Assembly: GCA_016187725.1 (NCBI GenBank) | Contig: JACPJE010000068.1 | Coordinates: 1-64,000 of the forward strand | DNA: 64,000 bases | DNA from: Candidatus Latescibacterota bacterium | Lineage (GTDB): Bacteria > Latescibacterota > UBA2968 > UBA8231 | Direction of reading: 5' to 3' | In this document: one piece after another, positions 12,803 to 64,000 of the stretch | Layout of the letters: each line of letters begins with the position of its first letter | Numbering within the stretch: position 1 is the first letter of the stretch | Program-made: the position numbers and the translations under genes | The notes under the pieces: generated by a model | Seen by the model: only the letters and a program-made list of their open reading frames with translations | What the model was told of the DNA's origin: nothing | Database searches by the model: none

Positions 12803-12806
12803 CCGC

Positions 12807-13103: not shown

Positions 13104-13121
13104 GCGCCTCTAAAATCCTGT

Positions 13122-13146
13122 AAGGGCGGGTTTGCAACCCGCCCTT
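13122..13146. repeat. Perfect 11-bp-arm palindrome in the BMC operon
   Basis: AAGGGCGGGTT (13122-13132) and AACCCGCCCTT (13136-13146) form an 11-bp stem with a 3-base loop between the aldehyde dehydrogenase and BMC-P genes. Inside an operon it could stabilise or process the mRNA, or attenuate the shell genes. It is of the same G-rich REP-like type as those at 2117-2216 and 30605-30630. Confidence 0.65.
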
Positions 13147-13173
13147 GTCTGTAGTCCGTGTTCTGAGATCATC

Positions 13174-14607
13174 TCAGGTGATGCGGAAATAATCCACCAA
13201 ACTGCAGCGGCGCTGGCGGGTGAAGGTGCGGGCCGAGGTCAACCCCTCTCCGGTGGGGCCGGCGATGGAGAAGGTACAGAACCCCTCCCCGCCGATGCCC
13301 ACCCCGCCGTAGGAAGGCCCGTTCTTGACGAAGATCGTGGTGTCCACGGCCCTGGCCATGTTGTGCATGTTCTCGATGTTGCGCGAGTGGATGATTGCCG
13401 TGTGCCGGTACCCGTGTTCGGACTCGATGGCCAGGCGGATGGCCTGCTCGACGTTGGGCACCCGGACGATGGGCAGGAAGGGCATCATCTGCTCTTCGTG
13501 GACGAAGGCGTGGCTGGCGTCGGTCTCGCCGATGAGCATCAGCACCTGCTCGTCGAGGTGGATGCCCACCCGCTGGGCCAGCACCGAGGCGTTGCGGCCT
13601 ACCAGCTCGCGGTTGACCACCAGTTCGCCCTTGGGACTTTTGACAAAGGCGTGTTTGGCCAACTCCTCGATCTGGGCGGGGGTGAGTTCGTAGCCGCTGT
13701 GGCGCACCAGGCGCGCCTTGAGTTCGTCGGCCACCGACTCGATCACAAAGACCTGCTTCTCGCCGATGCACAGGATGTTGTTGTCGAAAGCAGCCCCGGC
13801 GATGATGTCGCGGGCGGCCCGGTCGATGTCCGCGGTCTCGTCCACCACCACCGGCGGGTTGCCCGGCCCGGCGACGATGGCCTTCTTGGGACTGGCCATG
13901 GCGGCCTTGGCCACCCCAGGGCCCCCGGTCACCAAAAGCACCCGGATGCCCGGATGGGTGAAGAGCTGCTGGGCGCTTTCGATGGTGGGGGTCTCGATGG
14001 CGGTGATCAGATCGGCCGGCCCGCCCACCCGGGTGATGGCTTCGTTGAGCAGGCGCACCGCCCAGGCCGAGACCTTCTTGGCCGCCGGGTGCACGTTGAA
14101 GACCACCGAGTTGCCCGCGGCGATGATGCTGATGGCGTTGTTCACCAGGGTGGGCACTGGGTGGGTGGAGGGAGTCACCGCGCCGATCACCCCGTAGGGG
14201 GCCATCTCCACCACGGTCAGGCCGTGGTCACCGGTCCAGGAGATGGCCTCCAGGTCCTCGACGCCCGGGGTCAGGTCAGCGGCGGCGTAGTGCTTGCGGA
14301 TCTTGTGGTCCACCCGCCCCATGCCGGTCTCCTCCACGGTCATGCGGGAGGATTCCTCGGCCTTGCTGCGGATGGCCTGGCGGATGGCCTCGATGATCTT
14401 GCGGCGCTCCTCCAGGGTGCCCCCCACCAGGGCCCGCTGGGCGGCGGCGGCGGCGGCCACGGCCTCGTCCACGGTCTGGAAGACCCCGCCCGCCCCGCTC
14501 CTGCCCTCGCTGAAGCTGAGGGTGTTGCCGGCCACCACCCGGCCCACCACCTCCTGGACGATGCGGCGGATCTGCTCTTCGCTGACGTTGTGTGCCACCC
14601 CGTTCAC
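13174..14607 (-). CDS. BMC CoA-acylating aldehyde dehydrogenase (EutE/PduP type)
   Basis: 477 residues if GTG 14607 is the start. GTG 14598 is better placed behind GAGGTG and would give 474. The catalytic Cys280 lies in D-N-N-I-L-C-I-G-E-K, with G-P-G-N-P-P upstream, as in EutE/PduP enzymes that turn aldehydes into acyl-CoA with NAD. Residues 8-25 (VSEEQIRRIVQEVVGRVV) form an encapsulation-peptide helix. It supplies acyl-CoA for PduL. No alcohol dehydrogenase for NADH recycling is seen in this locus. Confidence 0.93.
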   Translation of the reverse strand: MNGVAHNVSEEQIRRIVQEVVGRVVAGNTLSFSEGRSGAGGVFQTVDEAVAAAAAAQRALVGGTLEERRKIIEAIRQAIRSKAEESSRMTVEETGMGRVDHKIRKHYAAADLTPGVEDLEAISWTGDHGLTVVEMAPYGVIGAVTPSTHPVPTLVNNAISIIAAGNSVVFNVHPAAKKVSAWAVRLLNEAITRVGGPADLITAIETPTIESAQQLFTHPGIRVLLVTGGPGVAKAAMASPKKAIVAGPGNPPVVVDETADIDRAARDIIAGAAFDNNILCIGEKQVFVIESVADELKARLVRHSGYELTPAQIEELAKHAFVKSPKGELVVNRELVGRNASVLAQRVGIHLDEQVLMLIGETDASHAFVHEEQMMPFLPIVRVPNVEQAIRLAIESEHGYRHTAIIHSRNIENMHNMARAVDTTIFVKNGPSYGGVGIGGEGFCTFSIAGPTGEGLTSARTFTRQRRCSLVDYFRIT

Positions 14608-31025: not shown

Positions 31026-32374
31026 TGAACGCCCTGGTGCTGGCTCAGGGGTGCACCGGACAGGAACCCGCGCCTGATCCCGCTGCTCTTCCCCCTTCCC
31101 CTGCCCTGCAACCGGGTGCCGCCGGCGACTCGCTGCTGGAAGCAGGCCAGCTCCTGGCTCGCCGCGGCGCGCACCGGGCGGCCGAGGACCTCTTCAGGCA
31201 GGCCCTCCAGCGCGATCCCCAGCGCATTCCGGCCTATGCGGGTCTCGCCTACACCCTGCTCAAAACCGCCCAATTCCACCAGGCGGCGCAGGTGTGCACC
31301 ACTGGCCTGGCCCAGGATTCCACTGCCGTCTCCCTCTACAACATCCTCTCCGCCGCCTACGCCGGCGAAGGCCGCTATGCCCTGGCCATGCAGGCGCTCG
31401 AAAAGGCCCTCGCCCACCAGCCGGACTTCGCCCTGGGCTGGCTCAACCTGGGGGGCATCCACACCAGGCTGGGCGAGTACGAAGAGGCGACCCTCCTGCT
31501 GGCCCGGGCCTTGGCGTTGGCACCCGGGGACCCGGTGGTGCGCCGGCGCCGGGGAGAGCTTTTCTTACAGACGGACCAGCCCGATTCGGCCATCGCCGAA
31601 TTCGCCGCGGCCCTGCAGGCCGACCCGGACAGCGAGACGCTGTATTATCTCCATGGAAAGGCGCTGGAGGCCAGCGGCCAGCTCCCCCAGGCCCTGGAGG
31701 CCTATACCCAGGCCCGCCGCCGCGATCCGGGTTTTTCCGAAGCCCATTACCGCGCGGCCGTGCTGGCGCGCCGGCAGCAGCGCCCGGCGCTGGCCGATTC
31801 GGCCATGAGGGATTACGACCATCTGCAGGCACTCGGCCGCCAGGACCTGACCCTGCTGCAGAAATATACCCTCCTGCGCGCCTCCCTCCTCGATTCTCCC
31901 GAAGATCCCCTGCACCACTTTCAGCTGGCTCTCTTCTTCTCGCAGCAGGGGTACGACCGCGAAGCGCTCAACCGCTTCGCCCGGGTGCTGCAGCTTTGCC
32001 CCGAAGACTATCACGCCCTCAACCACCTGGGCAGCATTCTGCTGCGCAACAGGAACCCGGGGGAAGCCCTGGGTTTCTTCGACCAGGCCCTGCGGCTGGC
32101 CCCTGACTTTGCTCCTGCCCTGGTCAATGCCGGCAATGCCAGCATGCTGCTGCGCCGTCCCCAGGCCGCCGCGCGTTACTACCGCCGGGCCGTGGAGTTG
32201 GCCCCCGGAGCAGCGATGGCCTGGCACCAACTCGCCCGCGCCTATCTGGCCCTCGATCAGCCCCAGGAGGCGGAAAGGGCCCTGAGGAGCGGGCTGGCGG
32301 CGAAGGGGGCCGACCCCGGGGTGGTGCAGGCCATGGAGGAGTTGTTGCGGCAACTCGGGAAGACTCACCAGTAG
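30950..32374 (+). CDS. TPR-repeat protein, 5' end joined to a PduS fragment
   Basis: 474 codons from ATG 30950; ATG 30980 is an alternative. From about residue 55 the protein is a series of 34-residue tetratricopeptide repeats (for example A-Y-A-G-L-A-Y-T-L-L-K and W-L-N-L-G-G-I-H-T-R-L-G) to the end. The first 25 residues come from the PduS-like fragment, and a lipobox-like L-A-Q-G-C (about 31-35) suggests the true signal peptide was lost at the joint. It is tail to tail with the OPT-like gene, overlapping by 10 bp. Confidence 0.7.
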   Translation: MGYQVEPHKVMRDLGFTLSGLVASLLNALVLAQGCTGQEPAPDPAALPPSPALQPGAAGDSLLEAGQLLARRGAHRAAEDLFRQALQRDPQRIPAYAGLAYTLLKTAQFHQAAQVCTTGLAQDSTAVSLYNILSAAYAGEGRYALAMQALEKALAHQPDFALGWLNLGGIHTRLGEYEEATLLLARALALAPGDPVVRRRRGELFLQTDQPDSAIAEFAAALQADPDSETLYYLHGKALEASGQLPQALEAYTQARRRDPGFSEAHYRAAVLARRQQRPALADSAMRDYDHLQALGRQDLTLLQKYTLLRASLLDSPEDPLHHFQLALFFSQQGYDREALNRFARVLQLCPEDYHALNHLGSILLRNRNPGEALGFFDQALRLAPDFAPALVNAGNASMLLRRPQAAARYYRRAVELAPGAAMAWHQLARAYLALDQPQEAERALRSGLAAKGADPGVVQAMEELLRQLGKTHQ

Positions 32375-34317
32375 AACAGGTAGTTGGCCGTCTTGCCGGT
32401 GAAGCCGTCGATGAGGATCCACAGGCCCCCCGCCACGTAGTGGCCCAGGATCAGGCCCAGGAAGAAGGGCCGGGTCCGCTGGTACCAGGTGATCCCGCCG
32501 TAGCGCAGCACCACGGTTTTGACCAACCAGGCCAGGAAGATCGAGGGCATCAGGTGGTGGGTGGTCCAGGTCGCGCTCACCGGAAAGGCGATGGGGTGGA
32601 TGGGCCACCAGAGGAAACGCTGGTAGGCCAGGGTGAGCAGCACCTGCACCAGGGCCCCCAGCCCGGCCACCTGCCAGAAGGCCGCGGTAGCCCCCTGCGG
32701 GTTGCCGAGGTGGTAGGCGGCAAAGGTATAGGGCTCGGTGGCGGCCTCGTACCCGAAAAACCAGAAGCTCAGGTTCAGGGCGCCGTGCTGGTACCCGATG
32801 CGCAGCACGTTCCAGCTGGCCGCCGTGGTGGCGACCACTGCCGCCAGCAGCACCGCCCACAGGAGCCACCGGCGGTTGGCGATGGCGTAGTTCTCGGCCA
32901 GCCTAAATCCATGAATTACCGCCGCCATCAGGGTGGTGCGCATCCCCCCGCCCCAGGGCTGGATCAGGCCCAGGGCCCCGGTGTTCTGCGGGCCCAGGAA
33001 AGCGCTGCCAAAGGCGTGGATGAGCGCGTCGTTGGGCATGATCGGCGGTCGGGTCACGGCCAGGCCGCCCTCGGCGACGATGCGGGTGATGCTGTACATC
33101 AGCGCCAGGACCACCAGCAAGGTCACCGGCGCCACCCACCAATTCATGCCCGAAAGGTGCAGCCAGACCACCATCACCCCCATGGAGCCGGCCAAAAGCA
33201 GCACCGCCTGCCTGCAGCTGAGCAGATCGCCGGCCTCGGCCGCCGCTTCTCCCCGCCACGCCCGGCCGGCGATCTCCCTCAGGTGCCCCCGCGCCACCCA
33301 CAGCGACCCCAGGCACAGCGCCACCATCGCCCCGAAACCCTGGAAGACCAGATTCGAGGAGCCCAGGGCATTGCCCGCCGCCCGGTGGGTGCCGGGAACG
33401 CCGAAGTGGAGCATCAGGGCGTGCTCCAGCGAGGTGAGCAGCCCCAGGAACCAGATGCTGAAACCCAGCTTGGTGCTCAGCAGGTAGCCGAAGCCGACCA
33501 CCGCGTAACTGAGCGACAGGCGCAGGCGGAATTTGTCGTCCCAGAAGAAAAAGTACTGGGCGATGGGCATGGAGTCGGGAATGAAGAGGAAATAGTTGTG
33601 CAGGGCCCGCTGGCTGTAGAGCACCAGCGGCAGCGCCATGCCGATCCACGCCGCCGGGGTGCGGAAGAACTCGGCGAAGAGGCCGCGCTGGGGTTTTCCC
33701 TCCTCGCCGATCATGGCCAGGGGCACCTGCACCAGGGGAAAGGCCAGCCGCTCACTGGCGATCCACTGCCGGCGGACCAGCACCATGAGCGCGGTGGAGG
33801 TGCCGAAGAAGGCCAGGAGCATGGGGGCCCAGGCCGCCAGGGGCGCCAGCCACGCCTTCCAGGGCAGGGCCTCGCCGGCGGGCAGCCCTTCGTAGAACCA
33901 CTTGATCGCCTGCTCATCCTGCACCCGGAGCCAGCCCTGCACGTGGGGGAGGACGCGCCCGCTCCAGTCGTTCTCCGGGGTGGCGTAGTAGGTGCCTGCC
34001 GAGATATGGGGTAAGAGCACACAGACCAAGCCGTTGGTCGGCAGGGTGCAGGCCACCGCCCCCATCAGGTACACGGTGACCAGTTCGGCCTGGGAGAAGC
34101 GCCAGCGGCGGCCCAAGAGCGCCAGTAGCGGATTGACCAGCAGGATGAAGAGAAAGAAGAGGAAGACCGCCGCCGGCGTGCTGTAATCCAGGTGGAGGGG
34201 CGAGCCGGAGATGATCAGGTTTTCGTAGGTGGCGCCGACGCCGAGCAGGAGGGCCAGCAGCGCCCCGGCCAGCAGCGCGCGAAAGGTGATCTGGGAGGGG
34301 GCGCTTTCGTCTGCCAA
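32365..34317 (-). CDS. OPT-like polytopic membrane protein (DUF6785/DUF6784)
   Basis: 650 residues with about 14 hydrophobic segments. Long conserved loops, V-A-C-T-L-P-T-N-G, F-F-W-D-D-K-F and I-V-A-E-G-G-L-A-V-T-R-P-P, match the OPT-like DUF6785/DUF6784 families known mainly from uncultivated phyla. Transport of an oligopeptide or other large solute is likely but unproven. It starts 5 bp after the DUF4159 gene and is the last gene of the envelope train. Confidence 0.8.
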   Translation of the reverse strand: MADESAPSQITFRALLAGALLALLLGVGATYENLIISGSPLHLDYSTPAAVFLFFLFILLVNPLLALLGRRWRFSQAELVTVYLMGAVACTLPTNGLVCVLLPHISAGTYYATPENDWSGRVLPHVQGWLRVQDEQAIKWFYEGLPAGEALPWKAWLAPLAAWAPMLLAFFGTSTALMVLVRRQWIASERLAFPLVQVPLAMIGEEGKPQRGLFAEFFRTPAAWIGMALPLVLYSQRALHNYFLFIPDSMPIAQYFFFWDDKFRLRLSLSYAVVGFGYLLSTKLGFSIWFLGLLTSLEHALMLHFGVPGTHRAAGNALGSSNLVFQGFGAMVALCLGSLWVARGHLREIAGRAWRGEAAAEAGDLLSCRQAVLLLAGSMGVMVVWLHLSGMNWWVAPVTLLVVLALMYSITRIVAEGGLAVTRPPIMPNDALIHAFGSAFLGPQNTGALGLIQPWGGGMRTTLMAAVIHGFRLAENYAIANRRWLLWAVLLAAVVATTAASWNVLRIGYQHGALNLSFWFFGYEAATEPYTFAAYHLGNPQGATAAFWQVAGLGALVQVLLTLAYQRFLWWPIHPIAFPVSATWTTHHLMPSIFLAWLVKTVVLRYGGITWYQRTRPFFLGLILGHYVAGGLWILIDGFTGKTANYLFYW

Positions 34318-50975: not shown

Positions 50976-52094
50976 CTAGTTCTGCCTTACCCGCTCTTCG
51001 TAGGGCAGCGGCTCGGGAATCCCGAAGAGGTCGCGCTTGGCCTTGAGGTAATAGAGGTAGTTCTCATAGGTCACGTCGGGCGGCACCCGGTGGTCCACGT
51101 GGGGGATGCAGCCGCCCTGGCGCACCAGGGGCTCGATCCGCCGCAGTTCCCGGTCTATGGCTTCCTTGCCGGCGATCAGCGCCTTCTTGTCCACCCCGCC
51201 CAGCAGCAGCACCCGCTCGCCGTATTGGTCGCGCAGGGCGAAGGGATCGGTGCCGGCGGCGATCTCCAGGGGGAACATGCAGTTCACCCCGCCCTCCAGC
51301 CACAGGCCCACCAGCTGGCTGATGTCCCCGTCGCAGTCGGTGATCACCACGTCCACCCCGTGCTGGTGGAGCAGGTCGGTGATCCGCTGGTAGCGGGGCA
51401 CCATGTACTGCTCGAACATCGCCGGCGAGATGATGGGCCCGTGGTTGAAGCACATGTCCTCCCAGCCGGCGGCGAAATCGAAGTGCACCTGTTCCAGGGC
51501 CGGCCGGATGGTCTCGGCGATCAGCACGGTGATCTGCTCCATCACCTCCTCGAAGAGCGCCGGGTCGTCGTAAGCCATCAGCGAAACCCCCTCGAAGCCC
51601 ACCCAGTTGCGGATCCAGCCGAAGAGACTGCCGATGCCGATGCCCAGGGGGTAGTCGCGCTCCTGCCAGTGGGCTTTCAGCTCCTCCCAGTTGGGCGGAT
51701 AGCGGCCCACCATCCCCGGGTCCAGCCGGCGGCGGAATTCCTTCCAGGTCTGCCGGTCGCGCAGGGGGAACTCCAGGTACTTGGGGATGGAGGAGTGCCC
51801 GTCCCTGGCGACGATGCACTTGACCCCGTTGCCGTCCAGGACGATCTGGTGCTGCCTGGTCTCCTCCAGCACCTGGTGCTGGAAGCCGGGCAGCAGCCCG
51901 GAGTTGACCGGGGCTCCCGAGCGGGGGGCGAAGCCGAAGAAATGGTCGGCCTTGGCGTTGTCATTGACCCAGGCCGGCAGCCCCTGGGCGTGCCACAGGT
52001 CGAGGGTGTCGCTCCAGTACCCGAACTCCTCGTCTGGCACGTGGTCTGCGGGCCGAAAATGCATGGTGTCATTCCACCGCTGGCGATGGTCCAT
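50976..52094 (-). CDS. URO-D-family corrinoid methyltransferase candidate, copy 4 (last in operon)
   Basis: 372 residues from ATG 52094 behind GGAGAGGAG. URO-D/methyltransferase-type TIM barrel. The usual metal-ligand position reads V-I-T-D-C-D-G and the late loop G-G-C-I-P-H-V-D-H-R-V-P-P-D-V, unlike the HxC form of MtaA. Relatives move methyl groups to or from corrinoid proteins. The neighbours (corrinoid protein, activase, folate enzymes) support that role. Substrate unknown. Confidence 0.85.
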   Translation of the reverse strand: MDHRQRWNDTMHFRPADHVPDEEFGYWSDTLDLWHAQGLPAWVNDNAKADHFFGFAPRSGAPVNSGLLPGFQHQVLEETRQHQIVLDGNGVKCIVARDGHSSIPKYLEFPLRDRQTWKEFRRRLDPGMVGRYPPNWEELKAHWQERDYPLGIGIGSLFGWIRNWVGFEGVSLMAYDDPALFEEVMEQITVLIAETIRPALEQVHFDFAAGWEDMCFNHGPIISPAMFEQYMVPRYQRITDLLHQHGVDVVITDCDGDISQLVGLWLEGGVNCMFPLEIAAGTDPFALRDQYGERVLLLGGVDKKALIAGKEAIDRELRRIEPLVRQGGCIPHVDHRVPPDVTYENYLYYLKAKRDLFGIPEPLPYEERVRQN

Positions 52095-52114
52095 GGCAGG
52101 GCTCCTCTCCTTCC

Positions 52115-53251
52115 TCACTTTATGCGCGCTGGATCGATGGGATAATCCCCCCACGCCTCCACCATCTCCCCGATACGCTCCAGCCGGCTCAGCAGCGCCC
52201 CGGGCATGACGTTGTCGGCCACCCCCAGGATGAAGGCGTCGCCCGGGGCGACGGTGCGGAAGATGCCGCGCATGTACGCCTCGAACTGGTCTTCGCTGTA
52301 GGCTTCCTCCAGGATCACCGAGGGCACCGCCCCCCAGATGATCATGTCGGCGCCCCAGAAGCGGCGCGCCTCCTCCAGCGTGCAGGTCACCTGCGGGGCG
52401 GTGGTGAAGGTCTCGACCATGTCGAAACCGGCCTCCTGCAAATGCCTCAGGATCAGCCGCGAGTCGTTGTCGGCGTGCATGCACAGGAGCTTGTCGTGCC
52501 CGTGCAGCAATTCGGAGAAATCCTGGTAATACGGGGTGATGTAGCGGCTGAAAAGCGGCGGCGGGGTGAGGTTGGAATCCAAGTGGACCCCGTGCAGGAT
52601 CAGGCGGGCCGGCGAGGCGGCCACCACCGGCCAGACCCGCTCGCGTTCCAGCTCCTCCATGGTGCGCAACAGCCGCTCCGTTTCGCCGGGACAGTCGGCC
52701 AGCAGATAATAGGCGTTGTTGTACCCGGCCAGTTTTTGCAAGAAATGGTGGAGGGGGCAGTCGCCGGCCGCCACCAGGGGATAGCCGTCCTCGCCGATCT
52801 GGGCCTCGTACTGGAGGTACTTCTCGTAGGTGGGGATGTAGTGGGTGTGCTCGAACAGGTATTCGACCACGGCGAAGTCGGCGGGACCCTTGATCAGGTG
52901 CTCCACCTCCAGGCTCTGGATGCCCACCCGTTCCAGTTCGGCTGAAGAGCGGTACCGGCTCTCCACCTGGCCCATTGGGGTCCGGTAGGTGTACAGGGTG
53001 GACTCGCCCTCCTGGCGGCTGTGCACCTCCACGTCCCCCCGCTGCTCGCCGGCGAAGATCTGCCCTTCGCGCGCTGGCGTTCCCATGCCCAACTGGTGTT
53101 CGATCTGGCGCAGGGACATGCCGGCAAAGCGCTTGGGCAGGGTGTGCTGGCACTGGTGGGCGGTGTGCCAGAGTTGCAGCCGGGGTATCCAGGGGATACG
53201 GTCCGGGCTCTTGCGGTCCATGATGGCCAGCAGTCGCTCCCGGTCGGTCAT
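52115..53251 (-). CDS. URO-D-family corrinoid methyltransferase candidate, copy 3
   Basis: 378 residues from ATG 53251 behind GGGAGG. Opens T-D-R-E-R-L-L-A-I-M-D-R-K-S-P-D-R-I-P-W, as in URO-D family proteins. The metal-ligand loop reads L-C-M-H-A-D-N-D, an HxD variant. It lies 13 bp after the folate fusion gene and 20 bp before copy 4. It differs enough in sequence from the other three copies to act on another substrate or partner. Confidence 0.82.
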   Translation of the reverse strand: MTDRERLLAIMDRKSPDRIPWIPRLQLWHTAHQCQHTLPKRFAGMSLRQIEHQLGMGTPAREGQIFAGEQRGDVEVHSRQEGESTLYTYRTPMGQVESRYRSSAELERVGIQSLEVEHLIKGPADFAVVEYLFEHTHYIPTYEKYLQYEAQIGEDGYPLVAAGDCPLHHFLQKLAGYNNAYYLLADCPGETERLLRTMEELERERVWPVVAASPARLILHGVHLDSNLTPPPLFSRYITPYYQDFSELLHGHDKLLCMHADNDSRLILRHLQEAGFDMVETFTTAPQVTCTLEEARRFWGADMIIWGAVPSVILEEAYSEDQFEAYMRGIFRTVAPGDAFILGVADNVMPGALLSRLERIGEMVEAWGDYPIDPARIK

Positions 53252-53264
53252 CGGTGCCCTCCCT

Positions 53265-55784
53265 TCAGTGGGCAGGCCTGCCCAGGTCCAAGGCTTCGGC
53301 GCGCAGGCCCAGCACCTCGTTGCGCCACGAGGAAGAGTGCTGCAGCGCGGGGTCCTTGGGGAACTGGATGGGGTAGAGGTCATTGAGCCGACCAGTGCGC
53401 AGCGCGGTCTCGACCACCTGGTTCCAGTAGCAGCGCCGTTCCGGGTGCACCTCGCAGTTGCCGCCCAGGTCGGCCCCGCCGCAGGGACCGTTGAGCTGGT
53501 GCTTGGCGCAGCCGGCAGTGGGCTCGGGGCAGCGGTAGAAAAGGTCGGCAATGCGGCAATCCCCGCACATCTCGCAGCCCAGGGTGGCGCTCTTGACCGC
53601 CTGTTCGGCCTGGGTGAGCAGGCGTAGCCTCAGCGAGTCGGCCGGCCCGGAGACCAGCCCCTCCAGCAGCGGGTACAGACCGCGGTCCTTGCGGAAGAAG
53701 AGTTTATGCACCAGGTCCATGCCAGTACTGCTTTCCTGGTACCCGTGGCGCTGGGCCTGCTGGTAGGGCCCTTCCTTCAGGAGGCCGTCTTCGCCTTCGG
53801 GGAAGAGGTAGAAGGCCTTTTCCGGGGCCAGGCGCATGGGGCCCTGCTCGTCGCCGGCGCTGAACTCCTCTAGGCTCTCCCGCCAGGGGCGGCCCTCCAG
53901 TTGGCGGATGGTCTCCAACACCTCCAGGGCGTCGGCCATCTGGGTGAAGCCGGCCAGATCCACCCCCCGGTACCCCAGGCCCCGCACCAGCAGGTCGGCC
54001 AGGAGCGCGGCCCGGCGGATGGAGAAGGCGCGCTGGTACTCGGCCAGGTCGCCAAAGCCCAGCTTCTGCACCCGGGAGCGCTCCTTCTTGGACAGCAGCC
54101 GGCTCTGGTATTTCTTTTTCAGATCCTCGGGGATCACCACCCCGGCCACGTGCGCATGGCTGAGGATTCTGAGGAACTGCGGGGTGAGGTAGTAGGCCAT
54201 GCCGATCAGCGGCACCGGCTCCATGCCAGAGGTCTTGAGATAGAGTTGCAACTCGTGGAATTTCTTGGGGTCATAGCCCAGCTGGGTGATGAAGTACGCG
54301 GCGCCGGCCTGGCGCTTCTTCCACAGCTTGAGGTACTGGCCCCACAGGTCGGGCTCCTCGTACTTGAAGGGCGAGACGGCCGCCCCGGCGCACAGCCCTT
54401 CGAGCCCCCCCCCGGAGCGGGGCATCAGGGAGGGGAAATCCAGGCCGCGGCGCAGGCACTGCAGGGCCATCAGCAAGGTCACGGCGTCGAGGTCGAAGTT
54501 GGCCCGCCCCTCGAAGGAGTAGTCGCCGGTGACGGCGAAGAAATGGCGCAGCCCCTGGCGGTACATGCCAATGGCCCGCTGGGCCAGGCCCACCCGGTCG
54601 GAACTCTTGCAGGAGAGATTGACGATGGGCTGCCGGTCCATGATCCGCCCCACCTCCAGCCCGATGGTGTCCGGGCCGGGCACCCGGTGCCCGCCGGGGG
54701 TGTCGGTGATACTAAAAGTAAAGGGGGTGTTGCGGGCCTCTTCGGCCAGCTCCAGGATCTGGTCCACCCCGTCCTCAGAGGGGGCCATCTCCAGGAGGTA
54801 GATGGGCGGCCCGGAGGGGTCGGCCAGGGCCTTGCCGAAGAGGTCGGGCAGCGGCTTGCGCCGGGCCGGGGCCGGGGACCGGGGATTGCCCTGGGCAAAG
54901 TCCACCAGCAGGGAGAGGGCATCGGCCTCCTGGTCCTCGACGATGCGGCGGATCAGCGCCAGAATCTTGCTGTCTGCCTTGTCCTCCCCACTCATCTGCA
55001 CCGCGTCGAGGATGGCCGCGTCCACCCCGTATTCCATGGCCAGGTTCAGGTAGGCGCGGTTGATGGCCAGGCGCCGGGGCAGGCCGTCGGAGCAGTTGGA
55101 GAGGCCCAGGCACACGTGCACCCCGGCCATCTGGGCGTCGGCGCGGATGGCGCGGATGCCCTCGAAGGTGCGGCGGGTGTAGCCCACCACGTCGGCGCCC
55201 AGGGGCCCCACCGTGGGGTCGAAGAAGATCTCGTCCGCGGCAAAACCGGCGGCCACTGCCTTGTCGAAGAGATAGCGGGCGGTCTCGTGGTAGACCTCGG
55301 GGCCGGCGATGTCGGTGAAGCCGGTCTGGTCCCCCACCCTTTCGAGGAGCATACACACTGCCGAGAAGGGCAGCTGCCGGCGCATGCCCAGCACCTCCAG
55401 GCGGGTGGCGGTCACCGAGTTGACCAGGGGTTTGGCGCGGCCCCCGGTGAGCTTGTGGTAGAAGATCAGGCCGTGCTCCAGCACCTGGGGATCGGAGCTG
55501 TCGATACAGGGGGGAATGCCCCGGCCGTGCCGCTCGATGAGGGTGAGGATGTGTTCCATCAGCCGCAGGGCGTTCTGGCGGCCAAGGCCGGTGTCGATGA
55601 GGAAGTCGTCGACGTTGACGTCGAGGTAGTTGGCTCCGGCCCCGGCCTGGGCCCCCACCAGCTCGAGCAGGTGGCGCTCGCCGGCCTCGCGGTCCAGCGC
55701 GTCTCCCTGCAGCCAGCGCCGGCCCGAGGCGCGCACCGTGGGGATGTGGCAGTGAAGGGCTTCGCCGATGCGGATCAGTGCCAT
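53265..55784 (-). CDS. Pterin methyltransferase / MetF / MetV-like triple fusion
   Basis: 839 residues. Residues about 1-295 are a pterin-binding methyltransferase domain (D-V-N-V-D-D at 55-60, L-G-L-S-N230-C-S-D-G-L-P, as in MetH and AcsE). About 325-600 form a MetF-type methylenetetrahydrofolate reductase barrel. About 640-800 form a Cys-rich MTHFR_C/MetV-type end with C737, C740, C743, C752, C759, C768, C777 and C785. Acetogens carry these as separate proteins. One chain could take a methyl group from the corrinoid protein onto tetrahydrofolate and oxidise it to methylene-tetrahydrofolate, or run the reverse. The gene lies within the corrinoid operon. Confidence 0.88.
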   Translation of the reverse strand: MALIRIGEALHCHIPTVRASGRRWLQGDALDREAGERHLLELVGAQAGAGANYLDVNVDDFLIDTGLGRQNALRLMEHILTLIERHGRGIPPCIDSSDPQVLEHGLIFYHKLTGGRAKPLVNSVTATRLEVLGMRRQLPFSAVCMLLERVGDQTGFTDIAGPEVYHETARYLFDKAVAAGFAADEIFFDPTVGPLGADVVGYTRRTFEGIRAIRADAQMAGVHVCLGLSNCSDGLPRRLAINRAYLNLAMEYGVDAAILDAVQMSGEDKADSKILALIRRIVEDQEADALSLLVDFAQGNPRSPAPARRKPLPDLFGKALADPSGPPIYLLEMAPSEDGVDQILELAEEARNTPFTFSITDTPGGHRVPGPDTIGLEVGRIMDRQPIVNLSCKSSDRVGLAQRAIGMYRQGLRHFFAVTGDYSFEGRANFDLDAVTLLMALQCLRRGLDFPSLMPRSGGGLEGLCAGAAVSPFKYEEPDLWGQYLKLWKKRQAGAAYFITQLGYDPKKFHELQLYLKTSGMEPVPLIGMAYYLTPQFLRILSHAHVAGVVIPEDLKKKYQSRLLSKKERSRVQKLGFGDLAEYQRAFSIRRAALLADLLVRGLGYRGVDLAGFTQMADALEVLETIRQLEGRPWRESLEEFSAGDEQGPMRLAPEKAFYLFPEGEDGLLKEGPYQQAQRHGYQESSTGMDLVHKLFFRKDRGLYPLLEGLVSGPADSLRLRLLTQAEQAVKSATLGCEMCGDCRIADLFYRCPEPTAGCAKHQLNGPCGGADLGGNCEVHPERRCYWNQVVETALRTGRLNDLYPIQFPKDPALQHSSSWRNEVLGLRAEALDLGRPAH

Positions 55785-55799: not shown

Positions 55800-57617
55800 C
55801 TAACCGTTGAACAACATGGACTCGGCGAAGCGCATCTGGAAATCCGGGGTGCCGGCCAGTTGGAGGTGTTCGGCCTGCCGGGCGGCCAGCGTCCCTCGCT
55901 GGCGCAGGGCTCTGGAGACCAGGGCCAGGCGCGCGCCCACCAGGGCGCCGTTGCCCACAAAGCGGATTTTTTCTGGGTTTACCGCCGGCAGCAGGCCCAG
56001 GCGCAGGGCGCTGTGCTCGTCGAGGTAGTTGCCAAAGCCCCCGGCCAGGCAGAACTCGTCCAGGTCCCCAGGGGTCAGACCGGTCTTCTCCAGCAGGAAA
56101 TCGATGGCCGTGCGGATGGAGCCCTTGGCCAGCTGCAATTCGCGGATGTCGCGCTGGGTCAGGGCCAGGGGCGGCTCCCCCTCCCTCCAGGCCAGCACAA
56201 AGGCGCGGTCTTCTTCCTGTTCGATCAGCCGCTCCTTCCAGACCTGGGCTTCCACCTCCTCGGGGTCCAGCAGGCGCCCGGTCTCGTCGACGATCCCGTG
56301 GCGCACCAGCTCCGCTCCCGCGTCCAGCAATCCCGAGCCGCACAGGCCGCGCGGCGGCCCCCCGCCGATCACCTTGAGTTTGACGTTCCCGTCCAGGTGC
56401 ACCTCCTCGATGGCGCCGGGGGCGGCGTACATGCCGCAGGCGATGCGCGCCCCCTCGAAGGCGGGCCCCGCCGGGGTGGAGGTCACCAGCAGGCGCCTGC
56501 CGTAGCGCAGGGCCAATTCGCAGTTGGTGCCGATGTCGGCCACCAGGCGGATGCGGCCCTCGTCCTCGTCCAGGCCGGTAGCCAGGATGGCCCCCACGGT
56601 GTCGGCGCCCACGAAGCCGGCGATCTCGGGCAATATGTAGAGCCAGGCCGCCGGGTTGAGCGCCAGGCCGGCCTGGCGGGCCGGCATCTCCAGGGCGTCG
56701 CCGAAGATGGCCACGTAGGGCAGGTGGCCCAGTGACAGGGGCGAGATGCCCAGGAAGAGGTGCATCATGGTGGAATTGCCCACCAGGGTGGCTTCGTACA
56801 CCTCGGCGTGCTGCACCCCGGCTTTTTCCAGAGCCAGACCGATCACCTCCTGGAGGCTGGCCACTGCTGCCTGGCGCAGCTCTTCCAGTTGCGCTTCCCC
56901 TGCGAGGGTGTGGTTGATGCGGGCGATCACGTCGTGGCCATAGGCGGTCTGTTTGTTGACCACCGCGGCATGGCCCACCTCGCGGCCACTGACCAGGTCC
57001 ACCAGCGAGGCCACCACCGTGGTGGTGCCCAGGTCCAGGGCCACGCCGAAGCAGCGCCCGGAGGTGTCCCCCCGCTCCAGGCCGAGCAGGCGGTCCTCGC
57101 GCAGCACCGCGGTGAAGGTCCCCCCCTCCCCGTCGAGCAGGGAGGGCAGCCGGCGCAGGAGATCCAGGTCGGCCCGCAGGTCAGCCCGCAGCTCCCCCGA
57201 CCAGCGCAGGTGTTCCAGCCGCGCCCAGGGCTGGTGCAGTTTCTGGGGCTCCAGGTGGACGACCTGCTTGGTCACCGCCGGGTCGATGGCCACCGGGCGG
57301 CTCACCCCGCCGGGCAGGATGCGCATGGCCGGCCGCCGCGACGAGGCGGGGATCTCCACCCGCAGGGACCCGGCGACCCGCACCCGGCAGGAGAGGCGCA
57401 GCCCCTGGTCCAGCTCTTCGGGGGTGAGCAGGGCGTTCTCCTCGGGCAGGGGCGGTGCGGCTCCCTCCTCGATGCGCACCCGGCACTTGCCGCAGGTGCC
57501 CTCCCCCCCACAGGGGGCCAGCACCTCGGCACCCAGGCGGGCCAGGGCCTCGCGCAGGGGCAGGCCCTCGGGCACTTCGGCGCTCTGGCCTTCGGGAAGG
57601 AGGGTCAGGATGCTCAT
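55800..57617 (-). CDS. RACo-type corrinoid activation protein (2Fe-2S ferredoxin plus ASKHA)
   Basis: 605 residues. An N-terminal plant-type 2Fe-2S domain has C36, C42, C45 and C77. A middle linker leads to an ASKHA/DUF4445 ATPase (G-V-A-L-D-L-G-T-T-T-V-V near 191, L-V-A-D-I-G-T-N-C-E-L-A and G-S-G-L-L-D-A-G). Family members use ATP to re-reduce inactive Co(II) corrinoid to Co(I). It overlaps the DUF1638 gene by four bases, consistent with serving the corrinoid protein of this operon. Confidence 0.92.
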   Translation of the reverse strand: MSILTLLPEGQSAEVPEGLPLREALARLGAEVLAPCGGEGTCGKCRVRIEEGAAPPLPEENALLTPEELDQGLRLSCRVRVAGSLRVEIPASSRRPAMRILPGGVSRPVAIDPAVTKQVVHLEPQKLHQPWARLEHLRWSGELRADLRADLDLLRRLPSLLDGEGGTFTAVLREDRLLGLERGDTSGRCFGVALDLGTTTVVASLVDLVSGREVGHAAVVNKQTAYGHDVIARINHTLAGEAQLEELRQAAVASLQEVIGLALEKAGVQHAEVYEATLVGNSTMMHLFLGISPLSLGHLPYVAIFGDALEMPARQAGLALNPAAWLYILPEIAGFVGADTVGAILATGLDEDEGRIRLVADIGTNCELALRYGRRLLVTSTPAGPAFEGARIACGMYAAPGAIEEVHLDGNVKLKVIGGGPPRGLCGSGLLDAGAELVRHGIVDETGRLLDPEEVEAQVWKERLIEQEEDRAFVLAWREGEPPLALTQRDIRELQLAKGSIRTAIDFLLEKTGLTPGDLDEFCLAGGFGNYLDEHSALRLGLLPAVNPEKIRFVGNGALVGARLALVSRALRQRGTLAARQAEHLQLAGTPDFQMRFAESMLFNG

Positions 57618-58357
57618 CGGGGCAACTCGATCTGGATGATGTCCTCGCCGTAGCTGGGAGCGATGCGCTCCCCCGGCTGGGCGGTCAGGAAGTCCTCGGC
57701 GGACCAGGGGCCGTCGAGCCAGGCCTGCAGCAGACTCAGATCCCCCTCCACCTCGGCGTACTCCCAGTTGCGTTCCTGGCAGAGCTTCTCAGCCTGCCCC
57801 TTGGCGGGCAGGTGGCGGGTGAAGGGGAAGTCGATGAACACCCCGCGGCTATAGTGCTGGGTCCAGCCGTCCATCACCTCTATCAGGTACCGGGCGTTTT
57901 CCTCGCCGTATTCGGCCACCATCTCCTCATAGCTGCGCTGCTTGCCCAGGCCGGCCCCCTGCCGGCGCTCGGGCCGCTCCCCGCCCCGCTGGCGGTGCTC
58001 CAGCCAGCCGGCGGTATAGTAGTAAGTGCCCGAGTGCTCCAGGAAGTATTCCTTGTACCGCTCCTTGGAGCCCAGGAAGAAGGTGATGCAGTCGTGGGCG
58101 CGCGGGATGACCAGCCGGGTGTGGCGGGCCTCTAGTCCCTTGAGCATGTTGTTGCACAGGCCGTAGCCCAGCAGGATGCCGTCGAAGCGGCCTTCCTCCA
58201 CCGCGTCGATGCGTTCCTGGATGCGGTGGAGGCCCACCTCGGGATTGTCGTGGTACCCCTGGCTGAGAAAATCCAGGTCGAACTGGTTGGGGGAGCGGGC
58301 GGCGCAGGCGCAGATCTCGCGGAAGGCGACCTCGCAGGTGATGACTTTCAGAAACAT
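57614..58357 (-). CDS. DUF1638 protein, corrinoid methyltransferase partner
   Basis: 247 residues from ATG 58357. It overlaps the upstream URO-D gene by 10 bp and the RACo gene by 4. It has conserved C-E-V-A-F-R-E-I, G-Y-G-L-C-N-N, R-A-H-D-C-I-T-F-F-L-G and G-T-Y-Y-Y-T-A-G-W, typical of DUF1638. This family is often found next to corrinoid methyltransferase genes in methanogens and some bacteria, but its reaction is not known to me. Confidence 0.82.
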   Translation of the reverse strand: MFLKVITCEVAFREICACAARSPNQFDLDFLSQGYHDNPEVGLHRIQERIDAVEEGRFDGILLGYGLCNNMLKGLEARHTRLVIPRAHDCITFFLGSKERYKEYFLEHSGTYYYTAGWLEHRQRGGERPERRQGAGLGKQRSYEEMVAEYGEENARYLIEVMDGWTQHYSRGVFIDFPFTRHLPAKGQAEKLCQERNWEYAEVEGDLSLLQAWLDGPWSAEDFLTAQPGERIAPSYGEDIIQIELPR

Positions 58358-59517
58358 AACCCGCGTCCGAATTCCCTGACCGTATCGTACATGGCCCACA
58401 GCTGCTCCAGGCCCACGTCCGGGGGCAGGTTATTGCCTTCGCGCAGGATGAAGCGACCCCCCTGCGAGATGCCGCTCTTCAGGATGCGCACCACCTCCTC
58501 CCGCACCTGGGCCGGGGTGGCCCCCTGCAAAAACATCACCGAGGGCCCGCCACGGACCTCCACCTCGGGGCCCAGGGCCTGGCGCACCCAGGAAAAATCG
58601 ATGGGGAAACCGGTGTCGAAGGAGCGGATACTGAGTTCGTCGCGCAGGAAGGGGAAGAAGCGGGTGGCGTCGCCGCACAGGTGGATGGCATTGGCCCCCG
58701 GTTCGGATAATCCCTCGATGAGCTGGCGGTGGAAGGGCAGCACCTGCTCGGTGTACCTCTCGATGGAGAGGGACTGGATGGCGTCGTCGGCAAAGCCACA
58801 TCCATTGGTTTTCTGCGGCTGGCCCAGGCGCTGGCGGTAGGCGCGGATGCGGGAGAGGGTGGCCTCGGTGATATAGGCCAGCAGTTGGCGGGCATACTCG
58901 GGGTCAGCGGCCAGGTCGGTGAGGAACTCGGCGGCCCCGCGCAGGTTGCAGGCCACGGTCACCGGGCCGTCGGTGCCCAGGCCAGCGGGCAGCACCCGGG
59001 CGATGGGCTTGCCCAGGTAGGTGAAACCCTCTTCCTGCCGGCGTTTGAAGTATTCGCAGAAGGCCCAGTTGCGCTCCATCAGGCCGCCGCTGAAGGGGTC
59101 GGGAATGCCCTTTTTTAGCAGCGACCACTTGCGGCGCTCGTCCTGGAGCAGGGGCTGGGTGTCGGGCACTTCGCCATCGAAATAGTGCAGCGGGCAGCCG
59201 AACCAGCCCGCCTCGTAGGAGTTGAGGAAGTCGACGTAGACCTCCCAGCCCTTTTCCGGCAGCCCCATCTCCGCGTCCTGGGGCACGTGTCGGCGCACCC
59301 AGGCCTGGTGCTCCAGCTGCCGGGTGAGCATGCTCTCCGGATCGCCGAAGTACTGGGCGAAGCTGAGGCCGCGCGGGTTGGCCGGGTGGCCGAAGGCCGT
59401 GTACCGGGGATTGATGCCCAGGATCATGGGCACCCGCAGGGGCTCACCCCGGTGGTAGGCATCCCACACCTGGCGGACCTCGGCGTTGTGGCGCTCGTAG
59501 TCGATCTCGGCCCGCAT
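58348..59517 (-). CDS. URO-D-family corrinoid methyltransferase candidate, copy 2 (HxC type)
   Basis: 389 residues from ATG 59517. It keeps the HxC pair (A-I-H279-L-C281-G-D), two of the three ligands of the zinc site in MtaA/MtbA, but the late Cys is not found (F-I-L-R-E-G-N-N-L-P-P-D-V at its place). That site activates thiol methyl acceptors or donors. Of the four URO-D proteins here this is the most MtaA-like. It follows the corrinoid protein gene by 26 bp. Confidence 0.82.
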   Translation of the reverse strand: MRAEIDYERHNAEVRQVWDAYHRGEPLRVPMILGINPRYTAFGHPANPRGLSFAQYFGDPESMLTRQLEHQAWVRRHVPQDAEMGLPEKGWEVYVDFLNSYEAGWFGCPLHYFDGEVPDTQPLLQDERRKWSLLKKGIPDPFSGGLMERNWAFCEYFKRRQEEGFTYLGKPIARVLPAGLGTDGPVTVACNLRGAAEFLTDLAADPEYARQLLAYITEATLSRIRAYRQRLGQPQKTNGCGFADDAIQSLSIERYTEQVLPFHRQLIEGLSEPGANAIHLCGDATRFFPFLRDELSIRSFDTGFPIDFSWVRQALGPEVEVRGGPSVMFLQGATPAQVREEVVRILKSGISQGGRFILREGNNLPPDVGLEQLWAMYDTVREFGRGLCF

Positions 59518-59543
59518 AGGTTCCCCCGTCCGCCGCGCCGCGG

Positions 59544-60185
59544 CTAGTTCAGGCTGTCGACCAGCTCCTTGGCTTTCTCCACGGCAGTGGCCGCGTCTGG
59601 CGCATAGCCGTTGGCCCCGATCTGGTCGGCATAGGTCTGGGTCACCGGCGCCCCGCCGATCAGGGTGCGGACCTGGCCCGTGATTCCTGCCTCCTTGAGG
59701 GCTTCCACGGTGGTCTTCATCCCCGACATGGTGGTGGTCAAGAGGGCCGACATGCAGACGATCTGGGCGCCCTGGGTTTTGACCGCCTCGATGAAGCGGT
59801 TGGGCGGCACGTCGATCCCTAAGTCGATGACCTCGAAACCGGCCCCTTCCAGCATCATGGCCACCAGGTTCTTGCCGATATCGTGCAGGTCGCCCTTCAC
59901 GGTGCCGATGCAGGCCCTGCCCAGGGGCTCGACCTTCTCTTCGATCAACCTGGGCCGGATCAGCTCCATCCCCTTCTTCATCGCCCGGGCGGCGATGAGC
60001 ACCTCGGGGACGTAGAACTTGTTGTTCTTGAAGTAGTCGCCCACCACGTTCATGCCGGCGATCAGGCCCTCGTGCAGGATCTGGCGCACCGGCACCTTCT
60101 CTTGCAGGGCCTGGCGCACCAGTTCTTCGACCTTGGCCGCCTGTCCCTTGATCACGTTCTGGGCGATCCCCTGTAGATCTGCCAT
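59544..60185 (-). CDS. Corrinoid (B12-binding) protein, MtbC/MtaC type
   Basis: 213 residues from ATG 60185, behind AAGGAGGAAAG. A helical cap (about 1-85) precedes a B12-binding Rossmann domain with the cobalt-ligand motif D99-L-H101-D-I-G104, then S-A-L-L-T-T-T and G-G-A-P-V. It carries a methyl group between the substrate enzyme and the folate enzyme. It is the first gene of a seven-gene operon behind a sigma54-type promoter, and ends at the terminator at 50915. Confidence 0.95.
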   Translation of the reverse strand: MADLQGIAQNVIKGQAAKVEELVRQALQEKVPVRQILHEGLIAGMNVVGDYFKNNKFYVPEVLIAARAMKKGMELIRPRLIEEKVEPLGRACIGTVKGDLHDIGKNLVAMMLEGAGFEVIDLGIDVPPNRFIEAVKTQGAQIVCMSALLTTTMSGMKTTVEALKEAGITGQVRTLIGGAPVTQTYADQIGANGYAPDAATAVEKAKELVDSLN

Positions 60186-60383: not shown

Positions 60384-61445
60384 CTAGTTCACCCAGCCTT
60401 CCTCATAGCCAGTCTGGTAGAGGGCGACGATATTCTCGGGAGGGCTGACCGCCTGGATGTTGTGGCAGGGCGCCAGGACGTAGCCTCCCCCCTCGCCCAG
60501 CAGGCGCAGGTTCTCGCGCACCTCCCCGCGCACTTCCTCCACCGAGCCGAAGGCCAGGGTGTACTGGTTGTCCACTCCCCCGTGGAAGATCAGCCGGCCG
60601 CCGAAGTCCCGCTTGAGGGCCTCGCGCTCCATGCCCTTGCAGCGCCACTGGATGGGATTGAGCACGTCGATGCCCAGCTCGATCATCTCGGGCAGCACCT
60701 GGCGGACGGCCCCGTCGCTGTGGAAGAAGACAAAGGCCCCCCCCTGGTGGGCCAGGGCTATCATCCGCTTCATGCCCGGCAGCAGAAACCGGCGGATGTG
60801 CTCCAGCGAGAACATCAGGCTCTCCTGGCTGCCCAGATCCTCGGCCACGTAGCTGATCATCACCTGGCCCTGAGCCTGTTCACAGATGCGCCGGGTGTTC
60901 TCGTAGGCCAGGTCGAAGAGCTTGCCCAGGCAGTAATCCACAATATCGGGATGTTCGATCAGGTCCACAAAGGCCTGTTCTTCCCCGCGCAGCTTCTTAT
61001 ATAGAAGAAAAGGCTCGGAACCGCCGCCGCGGATGGGGTAGGCCTCCCAGCCCTTGAGCTGGGCCGGGATGCCCGAATAGTCGTACCAGTCCGGGCTGGG
61101 CCAGGTGTAGTGGCCCTCGATTTGCTCCACGCTGTCCCAGTGGGACAGGGGACTGTGTACACATTCGGCGTACACCCCGCTGCCGTAGTCGACCTGGCGG
61201 TGCCGGCAGCCGTAGATATCCTCCCCGGGGGGCGGAGGCGGCCCCACATAGGCCGGCCCCAGGGTGACCACCCGGTCGATGTGCAGTTTGTCGTACAGCT
61301 CCTGGTCCCCAGCACAGCGCAGGTGCCGCTTCAACTTGGCAGTGGCTTCCCCGGTGGCCCAGTAATCCATCGGTACCCGGTCCGGCCGCTCGCCCTTCAG
61401 GACGGCCAGCCAGCGCTCGCGGGGGGTCATGGTCTCTTTGGGCAT
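60384..61445 (-). CDS. URO-D-family corrinoid methyltransferase candidate, copy 1 (separate unit)
   Basis: 353 residues from ATG 61445 behind GCGAGGAAA; earlier in-frame starts are less well placed. Opens T-P-R-E-R-W-L-A-V-L-K-G-E-R-P-D-R-V-P. The metal-ligand loop is H242-S-D244-G and the late loop is V-L-A-P-C-H-N-I-Q. It has its own sigma54-type promoter and terminator, so it is controlled with, but apart from, the seven-gene operon. Confidence 0.87.
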   Translation of the reverse strand: MPKETMTPRERWLAVLKGERPDRVPMDYWATGEATAKLKRHLRCAGDQELYDKLHIDRVVTLGPAYVGPPPPPGEDIYGCRHRQVDYGSGVYAECVHSPLSHWDSVEQIEGHYTWPSPDWYDYSGIPAQLKGWEAYPIRGGGSEPFLLYKKLRGEEQAFVDLIEHPDIVDYCLGKLFDLAYENTRRICEQAQGQVMISYVAEDLGSQESLMFSLEHIRRFLLPGMKRMIALAHQGGAFVFFHSDGAVRQVLPEMIELGIDVLNPIQWRCKGMEREALKRDFGGRLIFHGGVDNQYTLAFGSVEEVRGEVRENLRLLGEGGGYVLAPCHNIQAVSPPENIVALYQTGYEEGWVN

Positions 61446-61620: not shown

Positions 61621-61735
61621 TAACTCGGTAATATGTTTCCCCTGATCTGGCTGGTGAAGGGGATTGGAGGGCCAGCGGTGATCCCACTGCTTTGGCGACG
61701 TGGTTCGGTGCAGCCGCTCTCAGGAGAACTGCTCA

Positions 61736-62326
61736 ATGATAGAGCTTGAGGTATACCGCCAGTTTCTCCACCACGCCCACATCTTCGCCTCGACGGTCCG
61801 GGAGATCCTGGAAGAGAAATACCTGCGGCAGACGACCACTCTGGACGTCACGGTGCCGCAGTTCAACCTGCTCAAGTTGATCGCCCACAATGGCAAACAC
61901 CAGGTCGGTGAACTCGCCTCTTTTCTGGGGGTGAGCCAGGCCGCAGCCAGCAAGAACGTGGACAAGCTGGTTCGTCTGAAGCTCATCATCAGGGAGGTCC
62001 AGCAGAGCGACCGGCGGGCGGCCTCCCTGAGCCTGACCCACAAGGGGAAGAGCGTAATCCACAGGTACGAAGCGCTGAAGGAGGAAAAGCTCAAAGAGAT
62101 CCTGGAAAGCCTCACGGCAGGTGAACTGGCCACCCTGATGCAGGGTCTTGAGAAGGTCGCGCATCTGATTCTCGAAAAGGAACTGGACAGAAACAGGTGC
62201 ATGCGATGCAATGCGTACTACGTGAAATCCTGCCTGCTGAAACCCCTGTGCGGCAACTGTCTATACCTTCAAACTCGGGAGCGCTCTTATGCCGAGGCTG
62301 TTGTTGCCTGCGAAGCCGGAAGCTGA
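61736..62326 (+). CDS. MarR-family regulator with C-terminal Cys cluster
   Basis: 196 residues from ATG 61736 behind CAGGAGAAC. Winged helix-turn-helix of MarR type (F-N-L-L-K-L-I-A, V-S-Q-A-A-A-S-K-N-V-D-K-L, D-R-R-A-A-S-L-S-L-T). The end carries C155-x2-C158-x7-C166-x5-C172-x2-C175, which could bind zinc or an Fe-S cluster and sense metal or redox state; ordinary MarR proteins end before this. Lying between the methyltransferase genes and fhs, it probably regulates one or both. Confidence 0.82.
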   Translation: MIELEVYRQFLHHAHIFASTVREILEEKYLRQTTTLDVTVPQFNLLKLIAHNGKHQVGELASFLGVSQAAASKNVDKLVRLKLIIREVQQSDRRAASLSLTHKGKSVIHRYEALKEEKLKEILESLTAGELATLMQGLEKVAHLILEKELDRNRCMRCNAYYVKSCLLKPLCGNCLYLQTRERSYAEAVVACEAGS

Positions 62327-62411: not shown

Positions 62412-64000
62412 ATGCTGAGTGATCTCGAAATTGCCCAGGCTGCAAAGCTGAAACCCATCGTCGATATCGCCCGCGAGGCAGGCCTGGAGGAAGACGACCT
62501 GGATCTCTACGGCAAGTACAAGGCCAAGGTCCATCTGGACGTCCTGGAGAAACTCAAGGGCCGGCCAAACGGGAAGTACATCGACGTGACGGCGATCACG
62601 CCCACGCCCCTGGGCGAGGGCAAGACCGTGACCACCATCGGCCTTTCGCTGGGACTGAACCACATCGGCAAGAAGGTGCTCACCTGTATCCGCCAGCCCT
62701 CGCAGGGCCCCACCTTTGGCATCAAGGGCGGAGCCGCCGGCGGCGGGTATGCGCAGGTCGTGCCGATGGAGGACTTCAACCTCCACCTGACCGGCGACAT
62801 CCACGCGGTGAGCGCGGCCCACAACCTGCTGGCCGCGGCCATTGACGCCCGCATTCTGCACGATGATGAGATGAGCGACGAGCGGCTGGCGAAACTGGGC
62901 CTCAAACGGCTGGATATCGATCCCTATGCCCTCACCTGGAACCGGGTGCTGGACGTCAGCGACCGGGCGCTGCGAAACATCGCCACCGGCCTGGGCACCA
63001 AGGACGATGGCCGGCCGCGCCAGACTGGCTTCGACATCGCGGTGGCCTCGGAAGTCATGGCCATCCTGGCGCTGACCACGGACCTGCGCGATCTGAGGGG
63101 TCGGTTGGGGCGCATCGTCGTCGGCATGGACAAAAAAGGCAAGCCGGTGACCGCAGAAGACCTGGGCGCGGCCGGGGCGATGACCGTCCTGATGAAGGAC
63201 GCGATCATGCCCACCCTGATGCAGACCGTGGAAAACACGCCGGCCTTTGTGCACGCCGGCCCCTTTGCCAACATCGCCCACGGCAACAACTCCATCATCG
63301 CCGACCAGATAGGACTGAAGTTGGTCACTGGCGGCTACCTGGTCACGGAGAGCGGCTTTGGCGCGGATTGCGGCATGGAGAAGTTCTTCGACATCAAATG
63401 CCGCTACTCAGGGCTGGTCCCCAACTGCGTGGTCATCGTGGCCACCGTCCGCGCCCTCAAGATGCACGGCGGCGGCCCGCGGGTGGTGCCTGGGCGCGAT
63501 TTGCCCCAGGCCTACCAGAAGGAAAACCTGAAGCTGCTGGAGAAGGGCCTGTGCAACCTGGAGGCCTGCATCCGGATCGCGCGCCAGTACGGAATTCCCG
63601 TGGTGGTGGCTGTGAACCGCTTCACCAGCGACACCGAAGGGGAGATCGAGTTGGTGAAAAACGCGGCGGTCAACGCCGGGGCCGAAGGGGCCTTCACTAG
63701 CGAGGTGTGGGCCAAAGGGGGCGCCGGCGGCGGCGAACTGGCCGAAGCCGTGGCCGCTGCCTGCGAGAAACCCTCCTGTTTCCAGTTCCTCTATCCGCTG
63801 GAGATGTCGATCAAGGATAAGATCGAGACCATCGCCACGCGGGTCTACGGCGCCGGTGGGGTGGACTACCAGCCGGCCGCAGAGGCCAAGATCGAACTCT
63901 ACACTGAACTGGGCTACGACAAGTTGCCCATCTGCATGGCCAAAACCCACCTCTCCCTTTCCCATGACCCAACTTTGAAGGGAGCGCCGAAGGGTTTCAC
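62412..64000 (+). CDS. fhs: Formate-tetrahydrofolate ligase, 5' part
   Basis: Runs off the window edge after 529 codons, close to the full family length. The ATP loop is T63-P-T-P-L-G-E-G-K71-T. Other family blocks are [18 protein letters not shown] and [13 protein letters not shown]. It joins formate to tetrahydrofolate with ATP, or in reverse releases formate from 10-formyl-tetrahydrofolate with ATP synthesis. The gap of 85 bp before the ATG shows no clear promoter. Next to the folate-methyl operon, it would complete the methyl branch of the Wood-Ljungdahl pathway. Confidence 0.96.

Follow-up and report, generated by a model that had tools for sequence, protein, structure and literature searches.

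The glycine betaine system of Ruegeria pomeroyi comprises MtgB, MtgC, MtgD, MetF2, RamA and a DUF1638 protein, and MetF2, which is encoded downstream of mtgD, has been proposed to oxidise the methyl-tetrahydrofolate (methyl-H4F) formed by MtgBCD (PMC12478193). This system shares with the locus described here a corrinoid protein, a methyl-corrinoid:H4F methyltransferase, a downstream methylenetetrahydrofolate reductase (MTHFR), an activator and DUF1638; however, its components are separate proteins and its methyltransferase is of the MttB type (pfam06253), whereas the present cluster encodes UroD-type enzymes (PMC12478193). On plasmid p1 of Paracoccus methylovorus and on pSymB of Sinorhizobium meliloti, an MttB-family methyltransferase gene is found together with genes for a B12 protein, DUF1638, a MetV-like protein, MTHFR, a methyltransferase and an ASKHA activator. 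The last six components are also present here, but in Paracoccus and Sinorhizobium those for MetV, MTHFR and methyltransferase are three separate genes in that order.

The chloromethane pathway (CmuA/CmuB/MetF2) likewise has a corrinoid-linked entry, a methylcobalamin:H4F methyltransferase and an oxidative MTHFR, although CmuB and MetF2 are separate and the available part of the report mentions no MetV part (PMC3621897). The 2S-type MetFV of Clostridium ljungdahlii contains 0.73 FMN and 7.4 Fe and has in common with the present protein an MTHFR barrel and a MetV component carrying the signature NGPCGG, with two [4Fe4S] sites predicted on MetV there; it differs in consisting of two subunits, lacking a methyltransferase part and having its MetV gene upstream (PMC8515935).

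In the locus analysed here, which lies in a 64,000-nucleotide stretch of a Candidatus Latescibacterota genome (the window), these three parts are fused. The fusion is real, conserved and sensibly placed, and represents a new joining of parts already known as separate genes from the Paracoccus and Sinorhizobium plasmids and from Saprospiraceae. It is probably a folate enzyme with two activities that serves corrinoid-dependent demethylation, working in the oxidative direction and releasing electrons through its Cys-rich end. Uniting three parts of corrinoid methylotrophy in one chain fixes their ratio at 1:1:1, and a single purified protein would allow channelling from methyl transfer to methyl oxidation, as well as the electron path of a MetV-type reductase, to be tested; the locus also indicates a methyl-oxidation cluster in a little-known, uncultured bacterial phylum. 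A literature search, with most subscription journals outside its reach, yielded no description of such a fusion and no paper on corrinoid methyltransferases in this phylum, and the accessible part of a paper on mlp gene clusters contains no MTHFR fusion (PMC10418091).

Domain architecture and conservation

The fused protein is encoded by a single ORF of 839 amino acids, starting with ATG at 55784 on the minus strand and closing with a stop codon that ends at 53265 (Table 1). The original prediction placed a pterin methyltransferase, an MTHFR and a MetV-like end in one chain in this order, and all three are recovered over their Pfam cut-offs: Pterin_bind (43.6 bits vs 25.5), MTHFR (37.3 vs 24) and DUF5981, 'Methylene-tetrahydrofolate reductase C terminal' (72.2 vs 23). 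The proposed likeness to MetV is further borne out by the cysteines of the C-terminal end, which align one to one with those of stand-alone MetV-like proteins; MetF-like and MetV-like parts belong here to one chain and not to separate subunits. In NCBIfam, the N-terminal part corresponds to methyl-H4F:corrinoid/iron-sulfur protein methyltransferase at 106 bits, below the cut-off of 259. A homocysteine methyltransferase/MTHFR fusion of the YitJ type is ruled out by the absence of a homocysteine-binding methyltransferase domain from the fusion in Pfam, together with the sub-cut-off match to PRK08645, which covers only the MTHFR half (42 bits vs 453).

Table 1. Features of the fused gene and its neighbours, in window coordinates
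Feature	Position	Strand	Evidence
Fused protein, predicted methyl-corrinoid:H4F methyltransferase / methylene-H4F reductase / MetV-type Cys-rich end, 839 aa	53265..55784	-	ORF, Pfam, orthologues
Pterin_bind domain, aa 39-259; D95, N122, D189, N230 kept	55008..55670	-	Pfam, alignment, fold match 4o0q
Pro/Ala/Arg-rich linker, aa 300-330	54795..54887	-	sequence
MTHFR domain, aa 337-560; E332 just ahead of Pfam boundary	54105..54776	-	Pfam, hhalign, fold matches 8eac, 1b5t
DUF5981 / MetV-type end, aa 723-811; NGPCGG motif, eight Cys	53352..53618	-	Pfam, alignment
RACo/AcsV-like reductive activator with 2Fe-2S domain	55800..57617	-	domain searches
DUF1638 protein	57614..58357	-	domain search; start by inspection
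UroD-type methyltransferase B	58348..59550	-	domain search; start approximate
Corrinoid (B12-binding) protein, MtgC/MtbC-like	59544..60185	-	domain searches; start by inspection
UroD-type methyltransferase A	60384..61445	-	domain search; start by inspection
UroD-type methyltransferase C	52115..53251	-	domain search; start by inspection
UroD-type methyltransferase D	50976..52100	-	domain search; start approximate
MarR-family regulator, divergent from operon, Cys-rich tail	61700..62326	+	domain search
Formate-tetrahydrofolate ligase, 580 aa, continues beyond window	62412..64000	+	

Both active sites look intact at the level of sequence. In the N-terminal barrel, D95, N122, D189 and N230 are identical in 4/4 full-length orthologues and align to the same residues of 2yci; by reference to Moorella MeTr, we take them to be pterin ligands. 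E332, D421 and Q501 of the second barrel, invariant in the four full-length orthologues, align by hhalign with E28, D120 and Q183 of E. coli MetF, and presumably serve, as in that enzyme, as the catalytic Glu, Asp and Gln. The eight cysteines originally counted in the C-terminal end (C737, C740, C743, C752, C759, C768, C777 and C785) are likewise invariant in these four proteins and are kept in all 13 aligned sequences, including the MetV-like proteins that stand alone in Paracoccus and Sinorhizobium; the NGPCGG region is retained in 13/13 as well, with the variant NGPCAG in G011. Fe-S is favoured for this end because of the Fe content and predicted clusters of C. ljungdahlii MetFV, but the eight cysteines could also fit one cluster plus zinc.

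An AlphaFold2 model built from 11 alignment rows reached a mean pLDDT of 68.6, with the cysteine end below 50, and a pTM of 0.50, which makes the relative placing of the two barrels unreliable; the model was used for single barrels only. The top fold match of the N-terminal barrel is 4o0q (E 2.4e-13), an O-demethylase methyltransferase component that, unlike the fusion, is a stand-alone protein; 4o1e is also among the best. The second barrel matches the MTHFRs 8eac (E 4e-8) and 1b5t (E 1e-7), and PDB sequence searches returned no MetV match.

Gene neighbourhood

On the minus strand, the genes follow the order UroD A, corrinoid protein, UroD B, DUF1638, RACo, fusion, UroD C and UroD D, with RACo ending 15 bases ahead of the fusion start. 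The cluster lacks an MttB-family (pfam06253) methyltransferase and carries four UroD-type proteins instead. At the position of His-x-Cys in the matched coenzyme M methyltransferase 4ay7, whose His and Cys presumably bind zinc, UroD A carries His-x-Asp. The replacement makes a thiol acceptor less likely. Members of the UroD family act on methoxyaromatics and halomethanes, according to the available part of a report (PMC13222342). An MFS transporter of the lactate/oxalate-formate group, over the cut-off of an L-lactate transporter model, lies beside UroD A at L035 3754-5130 (G002) and L037 14309-15706 (G011).

The arrangement recurs in other carriers of the fusion. In G002, the series is the same as far as UroD C and is followed by formate-H4F ligase; the series is partly preserved in G007 and G011, the ligase again following UroD C, and on a second contig piece of G004 the fusion end is succeeded by UroD C, ligase and UroD D. 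The window's own ligase gene is transcribed divergently from the operon and lies beyond the MarR regulator. The ligase is found in or adjoining the cluster in all five carriers with enough flank (its own genome, G002, G004, G007 and G011) and beside split-type pairs in 0/15 stretches. A tblastn search of the ligase against 25 stretches gave seven matches, representing four genomes, three of them twice; the misses were the short fused contigs L038, L039 and L041 and all 15 split-type stretches. RACo is missing beside the fusion in G008 and G011. Elsewhere in the window, the minus strand carries microcompartment-type genes at 11874-14607 (phosphate propanoyltransferase, two EutN/CcmL vertex proteins and an aldehyde dehydrogenase) and a DUF6785/DUF6784 protein at 32371-34317.

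Proposed pathway and its alternatives

Domains, conservation, operon and orthologues are observed, whereas the activity, direction, cofactors and electron path of the fusion are inferred. The UroD-type methyltransferases would transfer the methyl group of one or more methylated compounds to the corrinoid protein, from which the N-terminal barrel would pass it to H4F; the second barrel would then oxidise methyl-H4F to methylene-H4F, with electrons moving from its flavin through the cysteine-rich MetV-type end to a further carrier. From methylene-H4F, the C1 unit could be converted by FolD, formate-H4F ligase and formate dehydrogenase to formate, yielding or involving ATP at this stage, and further to CO2. 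A route from methyl-corrinoid to methylene-folate was part of the original prediction and is backed by the operon context. The oxidative direction is suggested by the UroD-type entry enzymes, by the role proposed for MetF2 with MtgBCD and that published for CmuB with MetF, and by the absence of acetyl-CoA synthase from most carriers.

FolD is present in the fusion's own genome. Formate dehydrogenase exceeds its cut-off in 7/7 carriers, which is weak evidence because 5 of the 14 control genomes pass as well. Single in-frame TGA codons occur in several formate dehydrogenase alpha matches (G000:C149, G000:C129, G002:C266, G004:C67 and G019:C381), where they perhaps encode selenocysteine.

Operation in reverse is unlikely, though it is the strongest of the alternatives: methylene-H4F would be reduced to methyl-H4F and the methyl group loaded onto the corrinoid protein, to supply acetyl-CoA synthase or UroD-mediated methylation of acceptors. 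Formate-H4F ligase fits this path too, and sequence does not fix the direction; moreover, CdhD-type and CODH genes follow the ligase within about 5 kb on the same contig, and the acetyl-CoA synthase core CdhC occurs in G000, the fusion's own genome, and in G007. However, CdhC was not found in the other five carriers (2/47 class genomes, the MAGs being incomplete), G000 encodes an AcsE-like methyltransferase of its own on contig C149, which also carries CdhC, and several UroD-type methyltransferases per cluster would suit multiple methyl donors better than one acceptor. The count of CdhC also rules out a requirement for acetyl-CoA synthase. Past the window, the ligase is followed at L098 4189-9243 (G000 contig C30) by DUF3786, a CbiA/ArsA-type ATPase, a CdhD-type subunit and a CODH catalytic subunit.

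A more elaborate version of the oxidative mechanism, in which folate is held and passed from barrel to barrel without release while the Cys-rich end feeds the 2Fe-2S domain of RACo, so that methyl oxidation provides the electrons that reactivate the corrinoid (with ATP), is improbable. Apart from RACo, no cluster gene was recognised as an electron acceptor, and the neighbouring proteins scanned included none identifiable as Rnf, Hdr or Etf. RACo lies close to the fusion, but is absent from that position in two carriers; this absence and the lack of a recognised acceptor gene nearby also weigh against the main reading.

Slighter still is the chance that the main role of the fusion is biosynthetic, in methionine or C1 metabolism, by giving methyl-corrinoid or methyl-H4F to a methionine synthase. 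MtgC and MtgD of R. pomeroyi do serve methionine synthesis in addition to betaine demethylation (PMC12478193), but the genome with the fusion has a separate MetH-like protein (C207) and a split MTHFR/methyltransferase pair (C76), and none of the nine cluster proteins scanned with Pfam has a homocysteine methyltransferase domain.

Distribution and origin of the fusion

Among 47 genomes of the class and 64 of the phylum, own genome included, the fusion is present in seven and as a fragment in one more (G001), all in a single family of 25 genomes (f1); the MAGs concerned are labelled Latescibacterota/Gemmatimonadota. Further full-length orthologues occur in G002 (86% identity), G007 (61%) and G011 (58%), while the ORF is interrupted by contig ends in G004, G008 and G019. 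Scanning genome_contigs with two short patterns, a search sensitive to close relatives only, gave 78 candidate stretches, of which eight were confirmed: six fusion loci from five genomes (G002, G004, G007, G008 and G011) and two from Saprospiraceae with separate genes. In the phylum to which the Saprospiraceae locus belongs, 395 genomes yielded three with a match to MTHFR-DUF5981 and no case of the fusion (E up to 1e-30), and a phage collection contained weak partial matches only.

The original prediction had considered that separate genes might have been joined by error, but the same stop-free ORF recurs uninterrupted in other genomes, which rules out a faulty assembly. Between the window and G002, dN/dS is 0.215 for the whole protein and 0.15-0.27 in every segment, linker included. 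An assembly or annotation artefact joining adjacent genes is therefore hardly conceivable, even though the carrier genomes are fragmented and those named are MAGs, given four full-length ORFs at 58-86% identity, a single clade for both domains and a linker under purifying selection.

In Saprospiraceae and many class members, MTHFR and DUF5981 form one gene of about 510-550 amino acids that is followed by a methyltransferase gene, and a corrinoid protein and RACo are also present at the split loci checked. Of 29 stretches analysed, with G018 represented twice, 10 contained no methyltransferase gene; in the remaining 19/19, it lay downstream of MTHFR, twice more than 6 kb apart. Since the methyltransferase is N-terminal in the fusion, fusing changed the order too and was no plain read-through; an origin by mere loss of the stop codon separating two adjacent genes is unsupported. 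Trees of 35 and 30 rows (omitting the duplicates or fragments L003, L086, L084, L040, L014 and L081) unite all fused rows in a single clade (SH-aLRT 99). A branch of 1.3-1.4 changes per column separates this clade from the split rows, among them the genome's own pair; long branches meet at this junction, making sister relations unsure. This single clade on a long branch rules out a recent fusion of the genome's own split pair. The piece in G001 (contig C72, L042 147-428) is a lone C-terminal part, approximately aa 687-780, within another frame, and probably sits in a chimeric contig end.
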